Source: Flavobacterium luteum
GTDB taxonomy: Bacteria; Bacteroidota; Bacteroidia; Flavobacteriales; Flavobacteriaceae
Length of the DNA stretch: 64,000 nt
Assembly (NCBI RefSeq): GCF_008806775.1
Contig: NZ_WAEM01000005.1
Location: forward strand, 124,001 to 188,000
Direction: 5' to 3'
The first letter of the stretch is position 1, and every line of letters begins with the position of its first letter. The notes beneath the pieces are model-generated. The model ran no database searches. It had not been told where the DNA came from and worked only from the letters and a program-made list of their open reading frames with translations. Below, piece after piece: positions 45,333 through 52,206 of the stretch. The translations under genes and the position numbers were made by a program.

Positions 45333-46487
45333 TTAAAACCGCTTCACGTACTCCTGAGTCGTTACTCCCGTAATGTTTTTAAAAGCAATACTAAAGGTAT
45401 TGTAGGACGTAAACCCCACTGTGGTAGCAAGCGATTCTATTTTATGGTCGTTGAGGTAGCCGTGTTCGAGTAATTTGGTAGCATCGTGAATGCGTACAAT
45501 CTTTTTATAATCGGTGAAACTCTCGTTGCAATGAAATTTTAAAATAAAGTAGATATGGCTGATAGGAATTTTTAACGCAACAGCAATGTCCTCTGGACTC
45601 AAATCGGGATTTCGAAAAGCATTTGTATGAAAAGAAAACTCTTCCATTTGATGCAAATATTCTAGGAGCAAGGGTTTTATTTTTTCATCTAGTTTTCTAT
45701 CCTTCTCACTAGTAATAGGCAGCACCCTACTTTCCAAATTCCATACACTGCTGAGAGCTAACCTTTCAGTGGCTGCATCAATGGTTTTATTTAATACGTT
45801 ATATCCGTAAAGGATTTCAGGGCTAAGGATGATTTTTACAAAAATAACCATCCAAACCAATGCCGTTATCCAAAGGTAATTGTCTCTGGATGTACCTTGA
45901 TTATAGTTTATAATGATGATAGTCAAGCGAATTAAAAAAATTAATACAAAAGAAACATACAGAAAGATGCTCCATTTTTTTATCAACTTATTTTGTTTTT
46001 GAATAGCGTTGATATAGGTTTTTCGTCGCCATACGTGTTTATAGAGTATCATAAATCCGAAAATAGTATAGAGGCTGTAGAATAAAATGATTACAAAGAA
46101 AAACAGTTTTTTAACCCCATCGGCTTTGTTAGGATTTATATAAAGAAACGTGAGAAATAAGCTGACCAACAAAAAAGGCACTATAAAATGCAACAAATTA
46201 CCAAGCTCGAACTTGCTTTCGTATATAATATTCGTAAAATAGAGATAAAAGGAGGGCATCAGCATGATAACGCCTACATCGAGCACGGTTACAAATTTAC
46301 TTATATCCAGTTCTGGGTAGGCTTGTGCAATACCATGAAACAAGAATCGTATTGCATTGCTTGTGGTAATTGCAATCAGGTATTTATTGATGAGCGAATG
46401 TTCCTGATATTTATTTTTACCAAAGATTAAGGCAGTGGACAAAAATCCTAGTACGGCGGTAACAAATAATATTATGTTGCTGAGCAT
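45333..46487 (-). CDS. Membrane-anchored AraC-family regulator, copy 1
   Basis: A 384-residue protein with a multi-helix membrane domain (about seven helices within 1-225) joined to a cytoplasmic linker and a C-terminal AraC-type DNA-binding domain (about 285-384). The domain has two helix-turn-helices: SPEDIAVALKIPISHIYFILK and KIESLATTVGFTSYNTFSIAFKNITGVTTQEY. Its own gene is preceded by two 21-bp-spaced half-site pairs, suggesting autoregulation. It is a paralogue of the protein encoded at 48131-49288. A one-component membrane sensor is the likely role. Confidence 0.85.
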   Translation of the reverse strand: MLSNIILFVTAVLGFLSTALIFGKNKYQEHSLINKYLIAITTSNAIRFLFHGIAQAYPELDISKFVTVLDVGVIMLMPSFYLYFTNIIYESKFELGNLLHFIVPFLLVSLFLTFLYINPNKADGVKKLFFFVIILFYSLYTIFGFMILYKHVWRRKTYINAIQKQNKLIKKWSIFLYVSFVLIFLIRLTIIIINYNQGTSRDNYLWITALVWMVIFVKIILSPEILYGYNVLNKTIDAATERLALSSVWNLESRVLPITSEKDRKLDEKIKPLLLEYLHQMEEFSFHTNAFRNPDLSPEDIAVALKIPISHIYFILKFHCNESFTDYKKIVRIHDATKLLEHGYLNDHKIESLATTVGFTSYNTFSIAFKNITGVTTQEYVKRF

Positions 46488-46594
46488 AAGCCGAAATATT
46501 TTAAAAAGGAAGACCTACAATTACTTCTCTTACTTAAATTAAAAAACCGACTGCAAAGTACCACAATAATTGCAACCGTTTCAGAAAAAATACA

Positions 46595-46635
46595 TCTCAA
46601 AAGCTGGAAATCACCTCTCAAAAGCTGGAAATCCT
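46595..46635. promoter_or_regulatory. AraC-type half-site pair proximal to copy 1
   Basis: Two nearly identical 17-bp motifs, TCTCAAAAGCTGGAAAT, at 46595 and 46616 are offset by exactly 21 bp, the spacing of tandem AraC half-sites. They lie 108 bp upstream of the regulator ATG and about 35 bp behind a possible -7 box (TACTTTG, 46554-46560). Confidence 0.75.
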
Positions 46636-46756
46636 CTATTAAACTCCAAAAAATCCGAATATAAGACTGCAATCAAAGCTTATTTTTGATGAATATGCCC
46701 TGCTAGGCATTATCTGTAAAGAGTTTCATACCTACGCTCTCCTTTTTGAGGAACTG

Positions 46757-46784
46757 TTTGTTTGTTTGTTTGTTTCTTTGTTTG
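46757..46784. repeat. (TTTG)n tetranucleotide repeat between operator pairs
   Basis: Seven tetranucleotide units: four TTTG, one TTTC, two TTTG. Four-base repeats can change copy number by slippage. It lies between the two half-site pairs, so length changes would alter their helical phasing. The plus-strand frame around 46641-46812 also stays open for about 57 codons (FDEYALLGIICKEF within it), possibly a relic. Confidence 0.6.
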
Positions 46785-46831
46785 TTTTCTATTTTTACGA
46801 GCCCATTCATTAGGAAATTTAAGAAATCATA

Positions 46832-46870
46832 TCTCAAAAACAGGGAATCGTATCTCGAAACATGGGAAAT
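46832..46870. promoter_or_regulatory. AraC-type half-site pair distal to copy 1
   Basis: TCTCAAAAACAGGGAAT at 46832 and TCTCGAAACATGGGAAA at 46853 match the proximal pair and are again exactly 21 bp apart. All four copies face the same way. The 554-bp gap 46488-47041 between regulator and next gene otherwise contains only the TTTG repeat. Confidence 0.75.
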
Positions 46871-47041
46871 AAAAAGACGCTATTTCAGGAGTAATTTTAA
46901 AAGTAGTATTTCGCAGAATGAATCTATTCGATATAAAAACACGCCTAGTTTTACAATGAGAGAGTGCAGCATAATAATTTACGGCATTGCTTTCTGGCGG
47001 GACTTTTGAAAACGAATTTGTCAAGTTGATATCAATTGTAT

Positions 47042-47347
47042 ATGGAAACAAAAACCACAATAAAACAAGAAAAACCGACTTTGGTAAAGTCATTAGTAGG
47101 CGATGTGCCTTTCATGGATGCTGACGGTAAATCTATTTTTTTAGGGAACATCATTGAACAAACCAACTACAACGGTGAGCAATATTTAGCACGATATAAA
47201 GTTGTACGTGACCCCGCAGATAATGAAATTTGTCTTTGTATGATTTCAGGAAACGAAAAAGCAATGAGTTATCAAGGGTATTCTTCTTTCGGAAAAATAT
47301 TCAATGGCAAATTACTTAAAGGTCGGGTTGTAGGGCATAACGACTAA
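47042..47347 (+). CDS. Hypothetical protein
   Basis: A 101-residue soluble protein with no signal peptide; ATG at 47042 (a TTG six bases earlier is less likely). It begins with a Lys/Glu/Thr-rich stretch, and the core (MDADGKSIFLGNIIEQ, YLARYKVVRDP, ISGNEKAMSYQG) looks like a small beta-rich fold. I do not recognise the family. It is divergent from AraC copy 1, 171 bp past the distal half-site pair, so it may be a target of that regulator. Confidence 0.5.
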   Translation: METKTTIKQEKPTLVKSLVGDVPFMDADGKSIFLGNIIEQTNYNGEQYLARYKVVRDPADNEICLCMISGNEKAMSYQGYSSFGKIFNGKLLKGRVVGHND

Positions 47348-47488
47348 CGATAATACTAAGAAAAGTACTGGATTTTAAGGCTATAACTTATCAAACGAGA
47401 TGAATTAATTATAGTAAACCACAGCTAACGTACATTACCACTTTTTTTATAGCATAAGCTATACGTTTACAGGTTATTAAAAACTAAA

Positions 47489-47738
47489 ATGATGATGATG
47501 TTTAATTCAAGTTCTGAAAACAAAGCAGATACTATTGAATACGTCTTAACAAATGCTTAAGAATGGTTAGAAAGTTTAATAAAAGAATACCCATAATTAA
47601 GAATGAATCTCCATGAGAATAGATTAGGCGATGGTGATTGGAATTTTAGGTTTTACGCTGGGAATTACGGGTAAACAAATTGATTTACAAATTCACGGTT
47701 TTACTAAAGAACAATCTCAAATTTTTACAAAAGGTTAA
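47489..47738 (+). pseudogene. Decayed gene of unknown family
   Basis: An ATG run at 47489 starts a frame reading MMMMFNSSSENKAD then several in-frame stops, still with protein-like segments (EWLESLIKEYP, NLHENRLGDGDWNFRFYAG). A frameshift then continues the similarity as GKQIDLQIHGFTKEQSQIFTKG to a TAA. At least three stops and one frameshift mark it as dead. It fills part of the 783-bp gap 47348-48130, whose remainder contains structured repeat B and no gene. Confidence 0.6.
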
Positions 47739-47928
47739 ACGAAAGTATAACCTAGTCGTCCATAGATATAAAGCACTACCCAAAAGGAGCGGTTTTTTGG
47801 CAAAAACCAAATAGGACAAGACTTTTCGTTTAAGAATCGATTTTAGAATTGTTTTTAGTCCTTAACAATTTTAATCCCTTTTTAGATAACGTCTTAAATT
47901 TTGACAATTACTACCCACAGTTTATTTC

Positions 47929-48132
47929 ATTGGTCTCAAAAATAGTTGAAACGATACACTTTTAGTGTATTTTCCTTTCAGATTCTAAAAACATGTACAC
48001 TAATTCGCAAATTAGTTCTTCTGCTTTTAAGTCTTTAAATTTGCGAATTAGCGATTTGATTTTTTGTTTTCAACCTTGGTAGACTTTCAGTCTGCAAAAC
48101 CAAATCTATTGACTTCGGGTAGATAGTGGTTT
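47929..48132. repeat. Structured repeat, copy B (four hairpins)
   Basis: Homologue of the 44386-44597 repeat. Hairpin 1 is ATACAC/GTGTAT (47954-47970), hairpin 2 is a 14-bp stem (48000-48013 with 48038-48051), hairpin 3 is GTAGACT/AGTCTGC (48079-48095), then the shared TGCAAAACCAAATCTAT block and an AAACC..GGTTT closing pair. The right end runs into the stop codon of AraC copy 2. Compared with A, base pairs change on both sides of the stems. Confidence 0.7.
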
Positions 48133-49288
48133 AGTTTAAATTTTTGTAATACTCTTGTGGAGTTGTTCCAGTGATGGATTTAAAACTGTTAAAAAAAGGC
48201 TTATAAGATGAAAAGCCTACTTCCATGGCAAGCGATTCCATGGTGCTGGATTTCAAAAAACCAGTTTCCAGCAGTTTGGTTGCATCATGGATACGAACCA
48301 TTTTTTTATAGTCGACAAAGGTAATGGCGCAGTGGTATTTAAAAACATACAGCAAATGTACTTTAGGAAGGTTTAGTTTTTGGGCAAAATCTTCTACCGT
48401 TATCTCAGGATTTCTAAAAGTATTGGTATGAAAAGACAGGCTTTCTATTTGGTGGATATAGTTGTTTAGATTGGTTGTCACGCTTCTAGTAATCTTGAGG
48501 TCTTTTTGGTTGGTTATCTCTGGTTTTGTGTCTAAAATCCAGATAGCATTTAAAACGACATCCGCTTTTTTGTAGGCCTCTATTTTTATTTTCATGAAAT
48601 CATATCCATACAAAAGTTCAGGTGTTGCCAGCAGTTTAATGAAAAAAGCCAACCAAAAAAGGGCTGCAATGCTTATTTGATAACTATTTCCATTGCTGTT
48701 GTAATTAAAACCATTGGTTATGAAGACTAGGATAATCATCCATCCAAGCATTACTATGGCAGCATAAAGGTATAAAGTCCAGTTCTTGATTGCTTTGGTT
48801 TGCTTGGCAAGCAAAGGAGCCTCACTTTTTTTTGACCAAATGGTATTGCGCAACAATCGGTAGCTAAGAAAATTATAAGTTGCGACACACACTATCAATA
48901 AGGCCACATAGACCATTCGGATGGTGGAAGCGTTCTCATACTGTTGTTGGACATTCAATACATGGAGCAGTACTACTACGAAAGGCACTATGAGGTAGAT
49001 GGCATCTTTACTACGCCATTTTTTACTATAAACCAAATCCCTAAAGTATAAATGCGTACAAGCGCCCATCAATATCACCATAAATACATTGGTACTGGTA
49101 AGTATTTCGACTGGAATTTTATGGAGATACACCGAAAAGCCGCGAAGCAGAAATCGAACGGAAAGGACGCTAAGGAGCACAATCAGATACTTGTTGATAA
49201 GCGGGTTGGCTTTGTATCTGAATACGGCAATGGCTGTGGTGATTAAACCCAGAATACCTGTTATTAAAGTCAAAAAATTAATCAGCAT
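48131..49288 (-). CDS. Membrane-anchored AraC-family regulator, copy 2
   Basis: A 385-residue paralogue of the 45333-46487 protein with the same layout: about seven hydrophobic helices (1-240) and a C-terminal AraC domain (VEDFAQKLNLPKVHLLYVFKYHC and MESLAMEVGFSSYKPFFNSFKSITGTTPQEYY). The ATG at 49288 is chosen over an upstream TTG because it gives the same length as copy 1. The gene is divergent from the T9SS cargo gene, with two half-site pairs in between. Likely role: regulation of that cargo and of itself. Confidence 0.85.
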   Translation of the reverse strand: MLINFLTLITGILGLITTAIAVFRYKANPLINKYLIVLLSVLSVRFLLRGFSVYLHKIPVEILTSTNVFMVILMGACTHLYFRDLVYSKKWRSKDAIYLIVPFVVVLLHVLNVQQQYENASTIRMVYVALLIVCVATYNFLSYRLLRNTIWSKKSEAPLLAKQTKAIKNWTLYLYAAIVMLGWMIILVFITNGFNYNSNGNSYQISIAALFWLAFFIKLLATPELLYGYDFMKIKIEAYKKADVVLNAIWILDTKPEITNQKDLKITRSVTTNLNNYIHQIESLSFHTNTFRNPEITVEDFAQKLNLPKVHLLYVFKYHCAITFVDYKKMVRIHDATKLLETGFLKSSTMESLAMEVGFSSYKPFFNSFKSITGTTPQEYYKNLN

Positions 49289-49387
49289 GTTCTCTTGAAT
49301 TAGATATTCAACTGCAAGGAGTTGCAAAAGGAGTTCTTGCTTGACAAAGAAACAACATTTCCTGATTCGTAATACCCATTCCTTGTA

Positions 49388-49427
49388 GTTAAAATAACGG
49401 CATGACTTGTCAAAACGGTGGCATGCC
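49388..49427. promoter_or_regulatory. AraC-type half-site pair proximal to copy 2
   Basis: GTTAAAATAACGGCATGAC at 49388 and GTCAAAACGGTGGCATGCC at 49409, offset exactly 21 bp, 100 bp upstream of the regulator ATG, the same distance class as in copy 1. Confidence 0.72.
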
Positions 49428-49480
49428 TACAATAATCTTGCGATGTGTTTTATTTTTCACTTTGAAAGCTATAACTTTTT

Positions 49481-49520
49481 GTCAAAAAGACGGCATTCTA
49501 ATCTATTTTAATGGCATTAA
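49481..49520. promoter_or_regulatory. AraC-type half-site pair at the T9SS cargo promoter
   Basis: GTCAAAAAGACGGCATTCT at 49481 and a weaker copy ending GGCATTAA at 49502, offset 21 bp. The downstream site ends 33 bp before the -7 box TAACTTTG (49554), where an activator would sit. Confidence 0.7.
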
Positions 49521-49553: not shown

Positions 49554-49561
49554 TAACTTTG
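49554..49561 (+). promoter_or_regulatory. -7 element of the T9SS cargo gene
   Basis: TAACTTTG, 44 bp before the chosen ATG (49606). No TTG at -33, so an activator would be expected to help. Confidence 0.45.
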
Positions 49562-49605
49562 TTGCTGATTTTTTAAAAAAGATACAAATGATTGTAAAAT
49601 TACAA

Positions 49606-52206
49606 ATGTACACTAAAATTAATTTAATGGTAGTGTTCATGTCTTTCTCTGCTGCTCAGGCACAAGTTCCAAATGAACCCACTAATTTAGTGGTAACACC
49701 CATAAATACAGGTGGTATGATACAGTTCTCTGAACCGTCAAGCATTGGTTACTCTACAATTACCAATTATGAGTATTCAATTGATAATGGAATCAATTGG
49801 GTTACTCCCACTACGGTAATAAAGGAGAGTCCAATAATTATAAATAGTGGCATAACTAATTGTACTTCCTATCAAGTAAAAATCAGAGCAGTTAACGATT
49901 TAGGTAAAGGAACACCTTCGGCTACAGTTACTCTAAAGCCTTCGAATTCTAATCATCCAGGTATGGATTGGACATCAAGAACTAACCCAGTAGATAATTC
50001 ATGGAATGGTATTATTTATGCCAATGGGCTCTTTGTGGCGGTGGGTGGCAGTTCTTCTGGAAATGGAGTAATGACTAGCTCTGATGGGAATATCTGGACG
50101 GCAAGAACTACTCCGGCGGATAACGAATGGTTTGGCATTACCTATGGTAATGGACTTTTTGTGGCTGTTGCAATTAGTGGAGTGGGTAACCGTGTAATGA
50201 CAAGCACAGATGGCATCAATTGGACGGCAAGAGCCTCTGCAGCGGATAATAATTGGTTGAGCGTCACTTACGGTAATGGTCTCTTTGTGGCTGTGGCTTT
50301 CAGTGGTGTAGGTAACCGCGTTATGACAAGCCCTGATGGTATCAACTGGACGACAAGATCCTCTCCGGTGGACAACGACTGGTTTGGGATTACTTATGGC
50401 AATGGACTCTTTGTAGCAATCGGACAAACTGGTTTTGGTAATCGAGTAATGACCAGCCCAGATGGAATTAACTGGACAGTAAGAACCTCTGCGGTTGATC
50501 TTAAATGGCGAAGTATTACCTATGGTAAAGGACTCTTTGTAGCAGTGGCTTATACTCGATCGACTTCGAGTGTCATGACAAGTCCTGATGGAATTATCTG
50601 GACAGCAAGACTTTCTGCAGCAAATAATAACTGGAACAGTGTTTCTTATGGAAATGGGCTTTTTGCGGCGGTGTCTAGTAGTGGTTCAGGTAATCGTGTA
50701 ATGACAAGTTTTGACGGCTTTACTTGGACAATAAGAGCCTCTGCGGAGAATAATTACTGGAATAGTATCACTTATGGCAACGGTCATTTTGTGGCGGTGG
50801 CTGCAACTGGTACAAGTAACCGTGTAATGACAAGTAGTTTTTCTCTGGTGGCCGATGCACCCCTAATTACTGAGGCATCTTTTAGTGGTACAACTACTAC
50901 TATTCAATTCACGCAATCAGGATCCTTATTGGCTCCAGCAATAACCAATTATGAATATTTTACTAATGATAGTACTACTTGGACGGCTTTGTCTCCAGCA
51001 GATACTACGAGTCCTTTAACCATAAACGGTTTGGCAAATGTGCCAAGTTTAATTATGATACGAGCTGTAAATAGTGTAGGTAATTCTTGTCCTTCCACAA
51101 ATTATCTCAATAATTACAATGTTACTTTCGATGCCAATGGAGGTTCAGGAAGCATGGCAGTACAAACCATTGATTATAATGTTTCGGCAAATTTAAGGAC
51201 CAATGCCTTTACCCGCACCGGTTATACCTTTTCCGGCTGGGCAACTACCAGCGTTGGCACAGTAGCCTATGCTAATAGTGCCAGTTATACCATGGGTGCT
51301 ACTGATGTTACCTTGTTTGCCAAGTGGACGGCGACTAGTGGCTCGAATGGAGCCATTACGCAGGTACGTCCTATACAATGTGGAAAAACATTGAGTTATT
51401 TAACATCTGCTATTCAGGCTAGCCCTCTAGTAGGAGCTACTGAATATACATTTGAAGTAACAAGAGTAGACAACAGCGTTGTTAATACAATAGTTACTTC
51501 AAACTATTACTTTTTTCCAGCAACTTTAATAACTGGAGGATTAGTTTATGGAAAATCGTATTCAGTAAAAGTGAAAGCTAAAATTGGGGGAATTTATCAA
51601 GCTTTTGGTAATGCCTGTATTGTTACAGCACCTTCTGAACCACTAGTTACAACCACTAAAATTAGACCAATGCAGTGTGGTAAAACATTGAATTATATCA
51701 CAGATGCCATTCAGGCAAGTCCTGTATACTTAGCAACTCAATATGAGTTTAACGTTACTGATGGTGTTACCACTGTTGTTATACCTTCTAGCGCTTCTTG
51801 GTTTAGACTAAGTCAATTTCCAGGAGGAGGTGTTTTTAATACAGCATATACAATAACTGTAAGATCAAAAGGACTTGCTACTGCATTTACAGCTTACAGA
51901 GATTCTTGTATTGTTACCACTCCAATTTCAAGAATGTCTGATTCACTAGAAAAAGAAAGTATTTTTAACGTAAAAGCATTCCCGAATCCATTTGCCTCAC
52001 ACTTTAGTTTAGACATCGAGAGTTCAAGCGATGATTTGGTTCAGCTGAAAGTATATGATATGATAGGACGACAACTAGAAGTTCGTAAGGCGACAGTAAC
52101 GGAATTAAGCACTAAAGAGATAGGCGCTAATTATCCATCAGGCGTATACAATGTTGTTGTATCACAAGGGGATAATGTAAAATCTTTACGAATAATAAAA
52201 AGATAA
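49606..52206 (+). CDS. T9SS-secreted protein with FN3-like, seven-repeat and InlB-like domains
   Basis: An 866-residue secreted protein. The signal peptide is MYTKINLMVVFMSFSAAQA (ATG 49606; the frame is open to an earlier ATG at 49402, but this holds the operator). Domains in order: FN3-like (about 20-110), seven ~42-residue repeats of W-T-x-R...ITYGNGLFVAVA...VMTSPDG type, an FN3-like linker, a Listeria-Bacteroides repeat (VTFDANGGSGSM to TLFAKW), two Q-C-G...C repeats, and a type A sorting domain (VKAFPNPFASHF to SLRIIKR). Probably a surface adhesin or binding protein. Confidence 0.88.
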   Translation: MYTKINLMVVFMSFSAAQAQVPNEPTNLVVTPINTGGMIQFSEPSSIGYSTITNYEYSIDNGINWVTPTTVIKESPIIINSGITNCTSYQVKIRAVNDLGKGTPSATVTLKPSNSNHPGMDWTSRTNPVDNSWNGIIYANGLFVAVGGSSSGNGVMTSSDGNIWTARTTPADNEWFGITYGNGLFVAVAISGVGNRVMTSTDGINWTARASAADNNWLSVTYGNGLFVAVAFSGVGNRVMTSPDGINWTTRSSPVDNDWFGITYGNGLFVAIGQTGFGNRVMTSPDGINWTVRTSAVDLKWRSITYGKGLFVAVAYTRSTSSVMTSPDGIIWTARLSAANNNWNSVSYGNGLFAAVSSSGSGNRVMTSFDGFTWTIRASAENNYWNSITYGNGHFVAVAATGTSNRVMTSSFSLVADAPLITEASFSGTTTTIQFTQSGSLLAPAITNYEYFTNDSTTWTALSPADTTSPLTINGLANVPSLIMIRAVNSVGNSCPSTNYLNNYNVTFDANGGSGSMAVQTIDYNVSANLRTNAFTRTGYTFSGWATTSVGTVAYANSASYTMGATDVTLFAKWTATSGSNGAITQVRPIQCGKTLSYLTSAIQASPLVGATEYTFEVTRVDNSVVNTIVTSNYYFFPATLITGGLVYGKSYSVKVKAKIGGIYQAFGNACIVTAPSEPLVTTTKIRPMQCGKTLNYITDAIQASPVYLATQYEFNVTDGVTTVVIPSSASWFRLSQFPGGGVFNTAYTITVRSKGLATAFTAYRDSCIVTTPISRMSDSLEKESIFNVKAFPNPFASHFSLDIESSSDDLVQLKVYDMIGRQLEVRKATVTELSTKEIGANYPSGVYNVVVSQGDNVKSLRIIKR
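49963..50841 (+). repeat. Seven tandem coding repeats of ~126 bp
   Basis: Seven consecutive units of about 42 codons within the cargo gene, each with the pattern WTxR...DNxW...ITYGNGLFVAVA...NRVMTSPDG. Seven copies of a W-x-S-x-D-G-type unit fit a seven-bladed beta-propeller. Confidence 0.85.

Follow-up and report, generated by a model that had tools for sequence, protein, structure and literature searches.

An AraC-type regulator predicted to be embedded in the membrane (regulator 2) probably forms an autoactivating one-component switch that drives both its own promoter and that of a divergent surface-protein gene, the two genes lying back to back in the window, the 64-kb stretch of DNA analysed here. 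Their start codons are separated by 299 bp, which contain four half-sites that make up two pairs (Table 1). As the sequence-only reading of this DNA had noted, the half-site copies at 49388/49409 and 49481/49502 are exactly 21 bp apart within each pair; all share one orientation. Judged by sequence, this regulatory layout of paired half-sites is real and conserved: the sites, their spacing and orientation, their distances to the promoters and their conservation can be read off the DNA itself. The ATG start of regulator 2 is in register with the starts of its relatives in an alignment, and an alternative, longer ORF for the divergent (cargo) gene, from 49402, would begin ahead of the -7 box.

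Table 1. Genes and regulatory features around regulators 1 and 2, in window coordinates.
Feature	Position	Strand	Remarks
Regulator 2	48131..49288	-	385 aa; seven predicted N-terminal helices and AraC-type HTH; HTH_18 3.9e-12
Regulator 2 -7 box TTTCTTTG	49345..49352	-	34 bp from regulator-side pair; identical in orthologues L196 and L200
Regulator-side pair, half-site 2, ATGCCGTTATTTTAACT	49387..49403	-	
Regulator-side pair, half-site 1, ATGCCACCGTTTTGACA	49408..49424	-	
Inter-pair block	49425..49479	none	38/55 positions identical in three orthologous loci
Cargo-side pair, half-site 2, ATGCCGTCTTTTTGACA	49480..49496	-	
Cargo-side pair, half-site 1, ATGCCATTAAAATAGAT, weakest copy	49501..49517	-	ATGCCGTTAAAA in both orthologues
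Cargo gene -7 box TAACTTTG	49554..49561	+	36 bp from cargo-side pair
Divergent surface-protein (cargo) gene	49588..52206	+	872 aa; T9SS type A sorting domain; TIGR04183 2.2e-10, Flg_new 5.5e-15
Regulator 1, paralogue of regulator 2 (36% identity)	45333..46487	-	AraC-type HTH
Regulator 1, regulator-side pair	46594..46631	-	TTTCC...TTTTGAG type, 21 bp
Regulator 1, second pair	46831..46868	-	21 bp, same orientation, 237 bp from first

The pairs stand out clearly from the rest of the window. We built a half-site matrix from the eight half-sites of the orthologous loci L196 and L200 only, whose regulators are 89-90% identical to regulator 2, and scanned the whole window on either strand for 21-bp same-orientation pairs. 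The two regulator 2 pairs took ranks 1 and 2 (scores 32.1 and 28.7), with rank 3 at 7.6, and the best score in 100 dinucleotide shuffles averaged 9.2 and never exceeded 21.1. The exact pattern GCCN4TTTTN10GCCN4TTTT has a single match in the 3.41-Mb source genome, the pair at 49387-49424; the cargo-side pair fails this exact pattern. Taken alone, CAAAAN4GGCAT was not significant in number, with 11 matches at up to one mismatch against 9.25 expected and 34 of 100 shuffles reaching 11. The weight of the half-site evidence is in pairing and conservation, not in the bare pattern. The (T)CAAAA core given in the sequence-only reading holds as TCAAAA for two of the four copies (49409 and 49481), the others being TTAAAA (49388) and TATTTTAATGGCAT (49502); both orthologues retain this atypical outer copy, the - strand reading ATGCCGTTAAAA. 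An opposite orientation for this weak outer half-site was dropped, as no first box fits. With up to two mismatches, the GCC/TTTT pair pattern has 77 sites in the genome compared with 86 for the reversed control, so that no wider regulon is visible in the regulator's own genome with this pattern. The block between the pairs is as conserved as the operators, and a GCTTTCAAAGC palindrome is present in two of the three orthologous loci.

Relatives of the regulator were found in 27 of 150 genus genomes by a single-protein search (E 1e-30) and in 59 of 398 by a profile search (E 1e-40), in 17 of 397 family-drawn genomes and in 4 of 296 phylum-drawn genomes, all four Flavobacteriaceae; these samples overlap, the source genome is inside each count and the profile searches scored the best 4-6 candidates per genome. 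A search of 120 relatives of genome G854 gave no additional locus. The collected set comprises 93 seven-helix AraC regulators with their surroundings from the family Flavobacteriaceae, with the duplicate records L034 (L200) and L035 (L196, from Flavobacterium lacus) each counted once. The orthologue in F. lacus CGMCC 1.12504 is 89% identical to regulator 2. In the open-access literature we found no paper on such a seven-helix AraC family; one may still exist in print. In a quick tree (SH-aLRT, midpoint root, 27 of 90 inner branches open), a large group II is separated from 22 rows, termed group I, among which are both window regulators; group I as a single clade is unsettled in this tree, and the branch of L194 is very long. 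Two such regulators stand in tandem at L219 and L221, like regulators 1 and 2 in the window. One subclade (L118, L120, L121, L124, L224 and L225) has an operon-like setting without a divergent gene, flanked, as seen by eye, by genes for a LysE-like protein (211 aa) and an Mrp-like protein (375 aa).

The 21-bp spacing recurs upstream of these genes. In 31 family upstream regions (L030 excluded), lag 21 was the strongest of lags 12-45 in 17, with a mean z of 2.25 against 0.04 +- 0.28 at other lags. Among 88 non-redundant upstream regions (5 of the 93 being excluded as near copies), lag 21 was top in 26 and lag 20 in 17 (mean z 1.46 and 1.18, respectively); in 176 control regions upstream of neighbouring genes, lag 21 had a mean z of 0.43 and was top in 16, lag 12 was top in 19, and the slight lag-21 excess stood alongside other multiples of three. 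AGTAA pairs in group II (71 loci) are spaced by 21 bp in 21 cases, by 20 bp in 9 and by the next spacing in 4. The 20-bp repeats are largely a group II feature and were not used as support for the main claim. Several group II loci (L209, L195, L197, L107, L216 and others) also have a second direct repeat, of TCGAT/ACGA type, between the AGTAA pair and the cargo start, 20 bp apart in seven counted pairs. Half-site letters differ between regulators 1 and 2, as the sequence-only reading had held, and by clade across the family. Its further proposal that sites and proteins diverged together is consistent with the covariation of site and HTH letters, but this runs along clades; because each site type marks one clade, co-divergence is confounded by phylogeny.

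Across group I, two operators face two promoters. Tests used 17 of the 22 rows, leaving out L126, L218, L220 and L194 (no regulator-side pair visible) and L110 (contig end near). Regulator-side pairs were chosen by eye from the upstream regions, so that the tests proper are those of the second pairs and of the -7 distances. Taking each regulator-side pair as a matrix, we compared 116 layouts (29 spacings x 4 orientations) in the 300 bp beyond it. Of 14 loci, 11 had the layout '21 bp, same orientation' at rank 1 and the remaining three (L200, L098 and L115) at rank 2; this layout ranked 67, 116 and 67 in L113, L111 and L116, sister loci of one lineage with no divergent gene. At 12 of the 14 loci with a second pair, the divergent gene starts like that of a secreted protein (by eye); the two exceptions, regulator 1 and L115 (which has only an 83-aa ORF), make the link between second pair and secreted gene strong, not strict. 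L126 apparently has a cargo-side pair only (by eye). Beside the second pair of regulator 1, the stretch 46831-47350 has no secreted gene, only a 103-aa ORF (47036-47347) with no Pfam or NCBIfam match. The former target of regulator 1 may have been lost; tblastn of other loci's ORFs against 46488-48130 (E 1e-3) found no remnants of a lost cargo gene.

The distances to the promoters are equally regular. In 17 loci the regulator-side pair has a TAnnTTTG-like box at 32-34 bp, and in 14 loci the second pair has another, facing the opposite way, at 36-38 bp (circular-shift p 2e-4 for each, the floor of 5000 permutations). Matches are poor for the regulator-side boxes of L115 and L097 (two and three of six fixed letters, respectively) and for the cargo-side box of regulator 1 (three of six). 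From the cargo-side pair there is no -7 box at a fixed distance in the regulator direction (p 0.67). In the window, the sequence-only reading had tied a pair to the promoter on the cargo side, as we do, but with a 33-bp gap where the actual one to TAACTTTG is 36 bp, and it had missed that the other pair stands in the same way before the regulator's TTTCTTTG box. Both pairs share one DNA orientation, so the TTTTGAC end points towards the regulator promoter and the TGCC end towards the cargo promoter. Group I also has a weak -7-like signal (mean 4.0 of 6 letters, p 0.0013) in the cargo direction, at 47-49 bp from the regulator-side pair; this signal may be a further cargo promoter or an effect of base composition.

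The distances between pairs (93, 237, 219, 196/195, 207/206, 175, 144, 144 and 144 bp) have a common helical phase, with a best period of 10.35-10.4 among the 5-30 bp scanned. Against a null of uniform distances between 90 and 240, the nine values give p 0.0003-0.0006; the p value is 0.0065 when 144 is taken once (seven lineage values) and 0.02 when L098 is also removed (six lineage values). This shared phase suggests that both pairs act together.

The architecture of the regulator agrees with the earlier proposal of a membrane-embedded one-component protein, with seven predicted helices fused to an AraC-type HTH. The AF2 model of regulator 2 has seven N-terminal helices (residues 2-24, 33-52, 60-87, 93-114, 120-151, 158-192 and 202-221) at a mean pLDDT of 88.1. 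The fraction of K+R is 0.202 in the predicted inner loops and 0.065 in the outer ones, and is higher inside in all 76 members, giving a predicted 7TM topology with N-out/C-in. Residues 1-228 align with solved GPCRs (VIA-align) at Z 14.5-16.6 and rmsd 3.5-4.4 among the matches listed, high Z being common for helical bundles; with the membrane part alone, Foldseek returned GPCRs as nearly all of the best 50 of 616 matches, none at E < 0.001 (best 0.023). In the model, the seven-helix arrangement of regulator 2 looks like that of GPCRs, which may or may not mean kinship. A Pfam scan of regulator 2 for histidine kinase or receiver domains found neither, returning HTH families and one NrsF match below the cut-off, and among the 76 members no non-HTH Pfam family occurs in more than three. 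Membership of the AraC/XylS family is indicated by HTH_18, above the cut-off in both window regulators and matched in 76 of 76 members (E up to 0.5), by sequence matches of the HTH to solved YesN, HTCS, ToxT and AraC domains, and by direct-repeat half-sites ~21 bp apart, a spacing usual in this family, HTCS included.

The divergent gene encodes a predicted T9SS type A cargo, as had been proposed, with a Por_Secre_tail sorting domain (TIGR04183, 40.4 bits against a cut-off of 23). The comparison of gene pairs that the sequence-only reading had suggested finds such regulators paired with T9SS cargo across Flavobacteriaceae. Among 91 regulators with an upstream ORF, that ORF is divergent in 73 (16 of 21 in group I, 57 of 70 elsewhere), and a sorting domain is found in the first divergent ORF at 44 of the 91 loci (4 in group I, 40 elsewhere) compared with 2 of 334 more distant ORFs at the same loci; in these counts, all rows outside group I are group II, outliers included, several group I cargo genes are truncated by the end of a contig, and some of the small ORFs may be spurious. 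The cargo proteins tested from group I differ in their domains: LamG/PKD at L097, BspA-type LRR at L122, collagen-like and YadA head repeats with no sorting domain called at L098, and Fn3/EPTP at L035 (the record of L196). Against the window cargo, that of L196 aligns over 504 residues at 60%; for the L200 cargo, which a contig end truncates, the best match covers 177 residues at 38%. Because the divergent genes encode unlike surface proteins, the cargo looks exchangeable. A recurrent divergent operon in group II (L096, L101-L107, L195, L197-L199 and others) encodes a sorting-domain protein of ~160 aa, a protein of ~205 aa and a large repeat protein; at L105, the sole operon tested, the first is a CTD protein, the second weakly matches an OMP barrel and the third is collagen-like. 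This operon may build a surface fibre.

We considered three other explanations. That the pairs are chance repeats in AT-rich DNA is next to impossible: the bare half-site pattern is indeed no commoner than chance, and lag 21 is slightly in excess in the control upstream regions, but the orthologue-matrix scan and the 116-layout test contradict this explanation, lag 21 leads in the family's upstream regions, and the -7 distances would hardly arise in this way (p 2e-4). It is also quite improbable that another AraC-type protein of the cell binds the pairs while the neighbouring regulator acts elsewhere. The genome does encode further AraC-type HTH proteins, with three more distant matches; against this, many loci have the sites next to a regulator of this family, the site letters shift with the regulator clade and the exact pair pattern is found once genome-wide.

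A third arrangement, which we consider rather unlikely, has the regulator-side pair repressing the regulator, with the DNA between the pairs looped in the off state and the cargo activated in the on state. AraC itself combines DNA looping with negative autoregulation, and the shared helical phase of the pair-to-pair distances (period 10.35-10.4) fits a loop. However, with its constant spacing of 32-34 bp, the regulator-side pair sits ahead of the core promoter, where an activator would be expected and not a repressor that covers the promoter. Moreover, three relatives have the regulator-side pair and no second pair, so that pair is useful without a loop partner.

In the autoactivating switch that we favour, regulator 2 would be a membrane-embedded one-component AraC-type activator, and the seven helices of each protein would anchor its DNA-binding domain at the inner membrane. 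Two DNA-binding domains would occupy two 17-bp half-sites 21 bp, or two helical turns, apart. The operator ahead of the regulator's own -7 box (34 bp) would give autoactivation, and the second, in the same DNA orientation 36 bp ahead of the -7 box of the T9SS gene, would place the cargo under the same receptor, so that a single receptor drives both promoters. Because the two pairs face two promoters, autoregulation together with cargo control is likelier than cargo control alone. We infer the neighbouring regulator as the binder, its activating effect, the outside signal, the joint action of the pairs and any looping. The -7 box is reported at -12 to -5 (PMC9723704); if it is so placed here, the nearest half-sites centre near -55 (forward, regulator) and -57 (reverse, cargo).

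Control of a neighbouring surface protein by an AraC-type one-component regulator is of a known kind; notable here are the sensor of seven helices, the two operators, each at a fixed distance from its promoter, and a cargo that looks exchangeable. ToxR, TcpP and CadC work alike, by a membrane-tied DNA-binding domain without phosphotransfer, but they have a winged OmpR-type HTH and a single membrane helix, in contrast to the AraC HTH and seven helices here. MarA is soluble and binds single boxes, unlike the membrane protein and 21-bp pairs described here. In MarA, SoxS and Rob (class I/II), the HTH is related, and the reported site ranges resemble the inferred -55/-57 centres: MarA is described as an activator both at forward sites, within -36 to -55, and at reverse sites, within -56 to -85 (PMC12052159). 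By this analogy, activation of both promoters is geometrically plausible. The HTCS of Bacteroides share with our system the phylum Bacteroidota, a single protein that combines a membrane sensor with an AraC HTH, and, for those with AraC output, predicted direct-repeat sites ~21 bp apart (PMC3878776). As described, HTCS have a periplasmic sensor, histidine kinase and receiver, whereas here seven helices lead directly to the HTH, and the HTCS targets reported there are polysaccharide genes (PMC3878776). In Streptococcus pyogenes, the AraC-type Spy1337 is divergent from the gene for the surface protein R28 (Spy1336) and is reported to regulate both genes positively (PMC7098570). Spy1337/R28 and the 'YSIRK-adjacent' regulators (TIGR04094) resemble the present case in that an AraC-type regulator and a surface-protein gene are divergent; the window regulators, at 34.5 (regulator 2) and 22.4 bits, are below the TIGR04094 cut-off of 200. 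The Spy1337/R28 cargo is of Gram-positive YSIRK/LPXTG type, unlike here, and the part of the Spy1337 account drawn on makes no mention of a seven-helix sensor such as that of regulator 2 (PMC7098570).

Taken together, the back-to-back regulators and surface-protein genes with twin sites suggest, from their sequences, a self-contained surface-protein switch. A broader version of this idea is possible but doubtful: a surface-display cassette in which a GPCR-like receptor fused to an AraC domain toggles both promoters through two phased 21-bp operators, the adhesin gene is exchanged between lineages and the receptor may sense the state of the surface assembled under its control. If the phasing reflects joint action, how a membrane-fixed protein bridges two operators becomes the question. 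The operator rule, 21-bp half-sites at a fixed distance from the -7 box, would make each regulator's target predictable from sequence and would provide a testable logic for membrane regulators whose sensor matches no recurrent Pfam family. T9SS sorting-domain matches number 100 in the source genome, and one answer to how a choice is made among so many such proteins would be local switches whose cargo can be exchanged.
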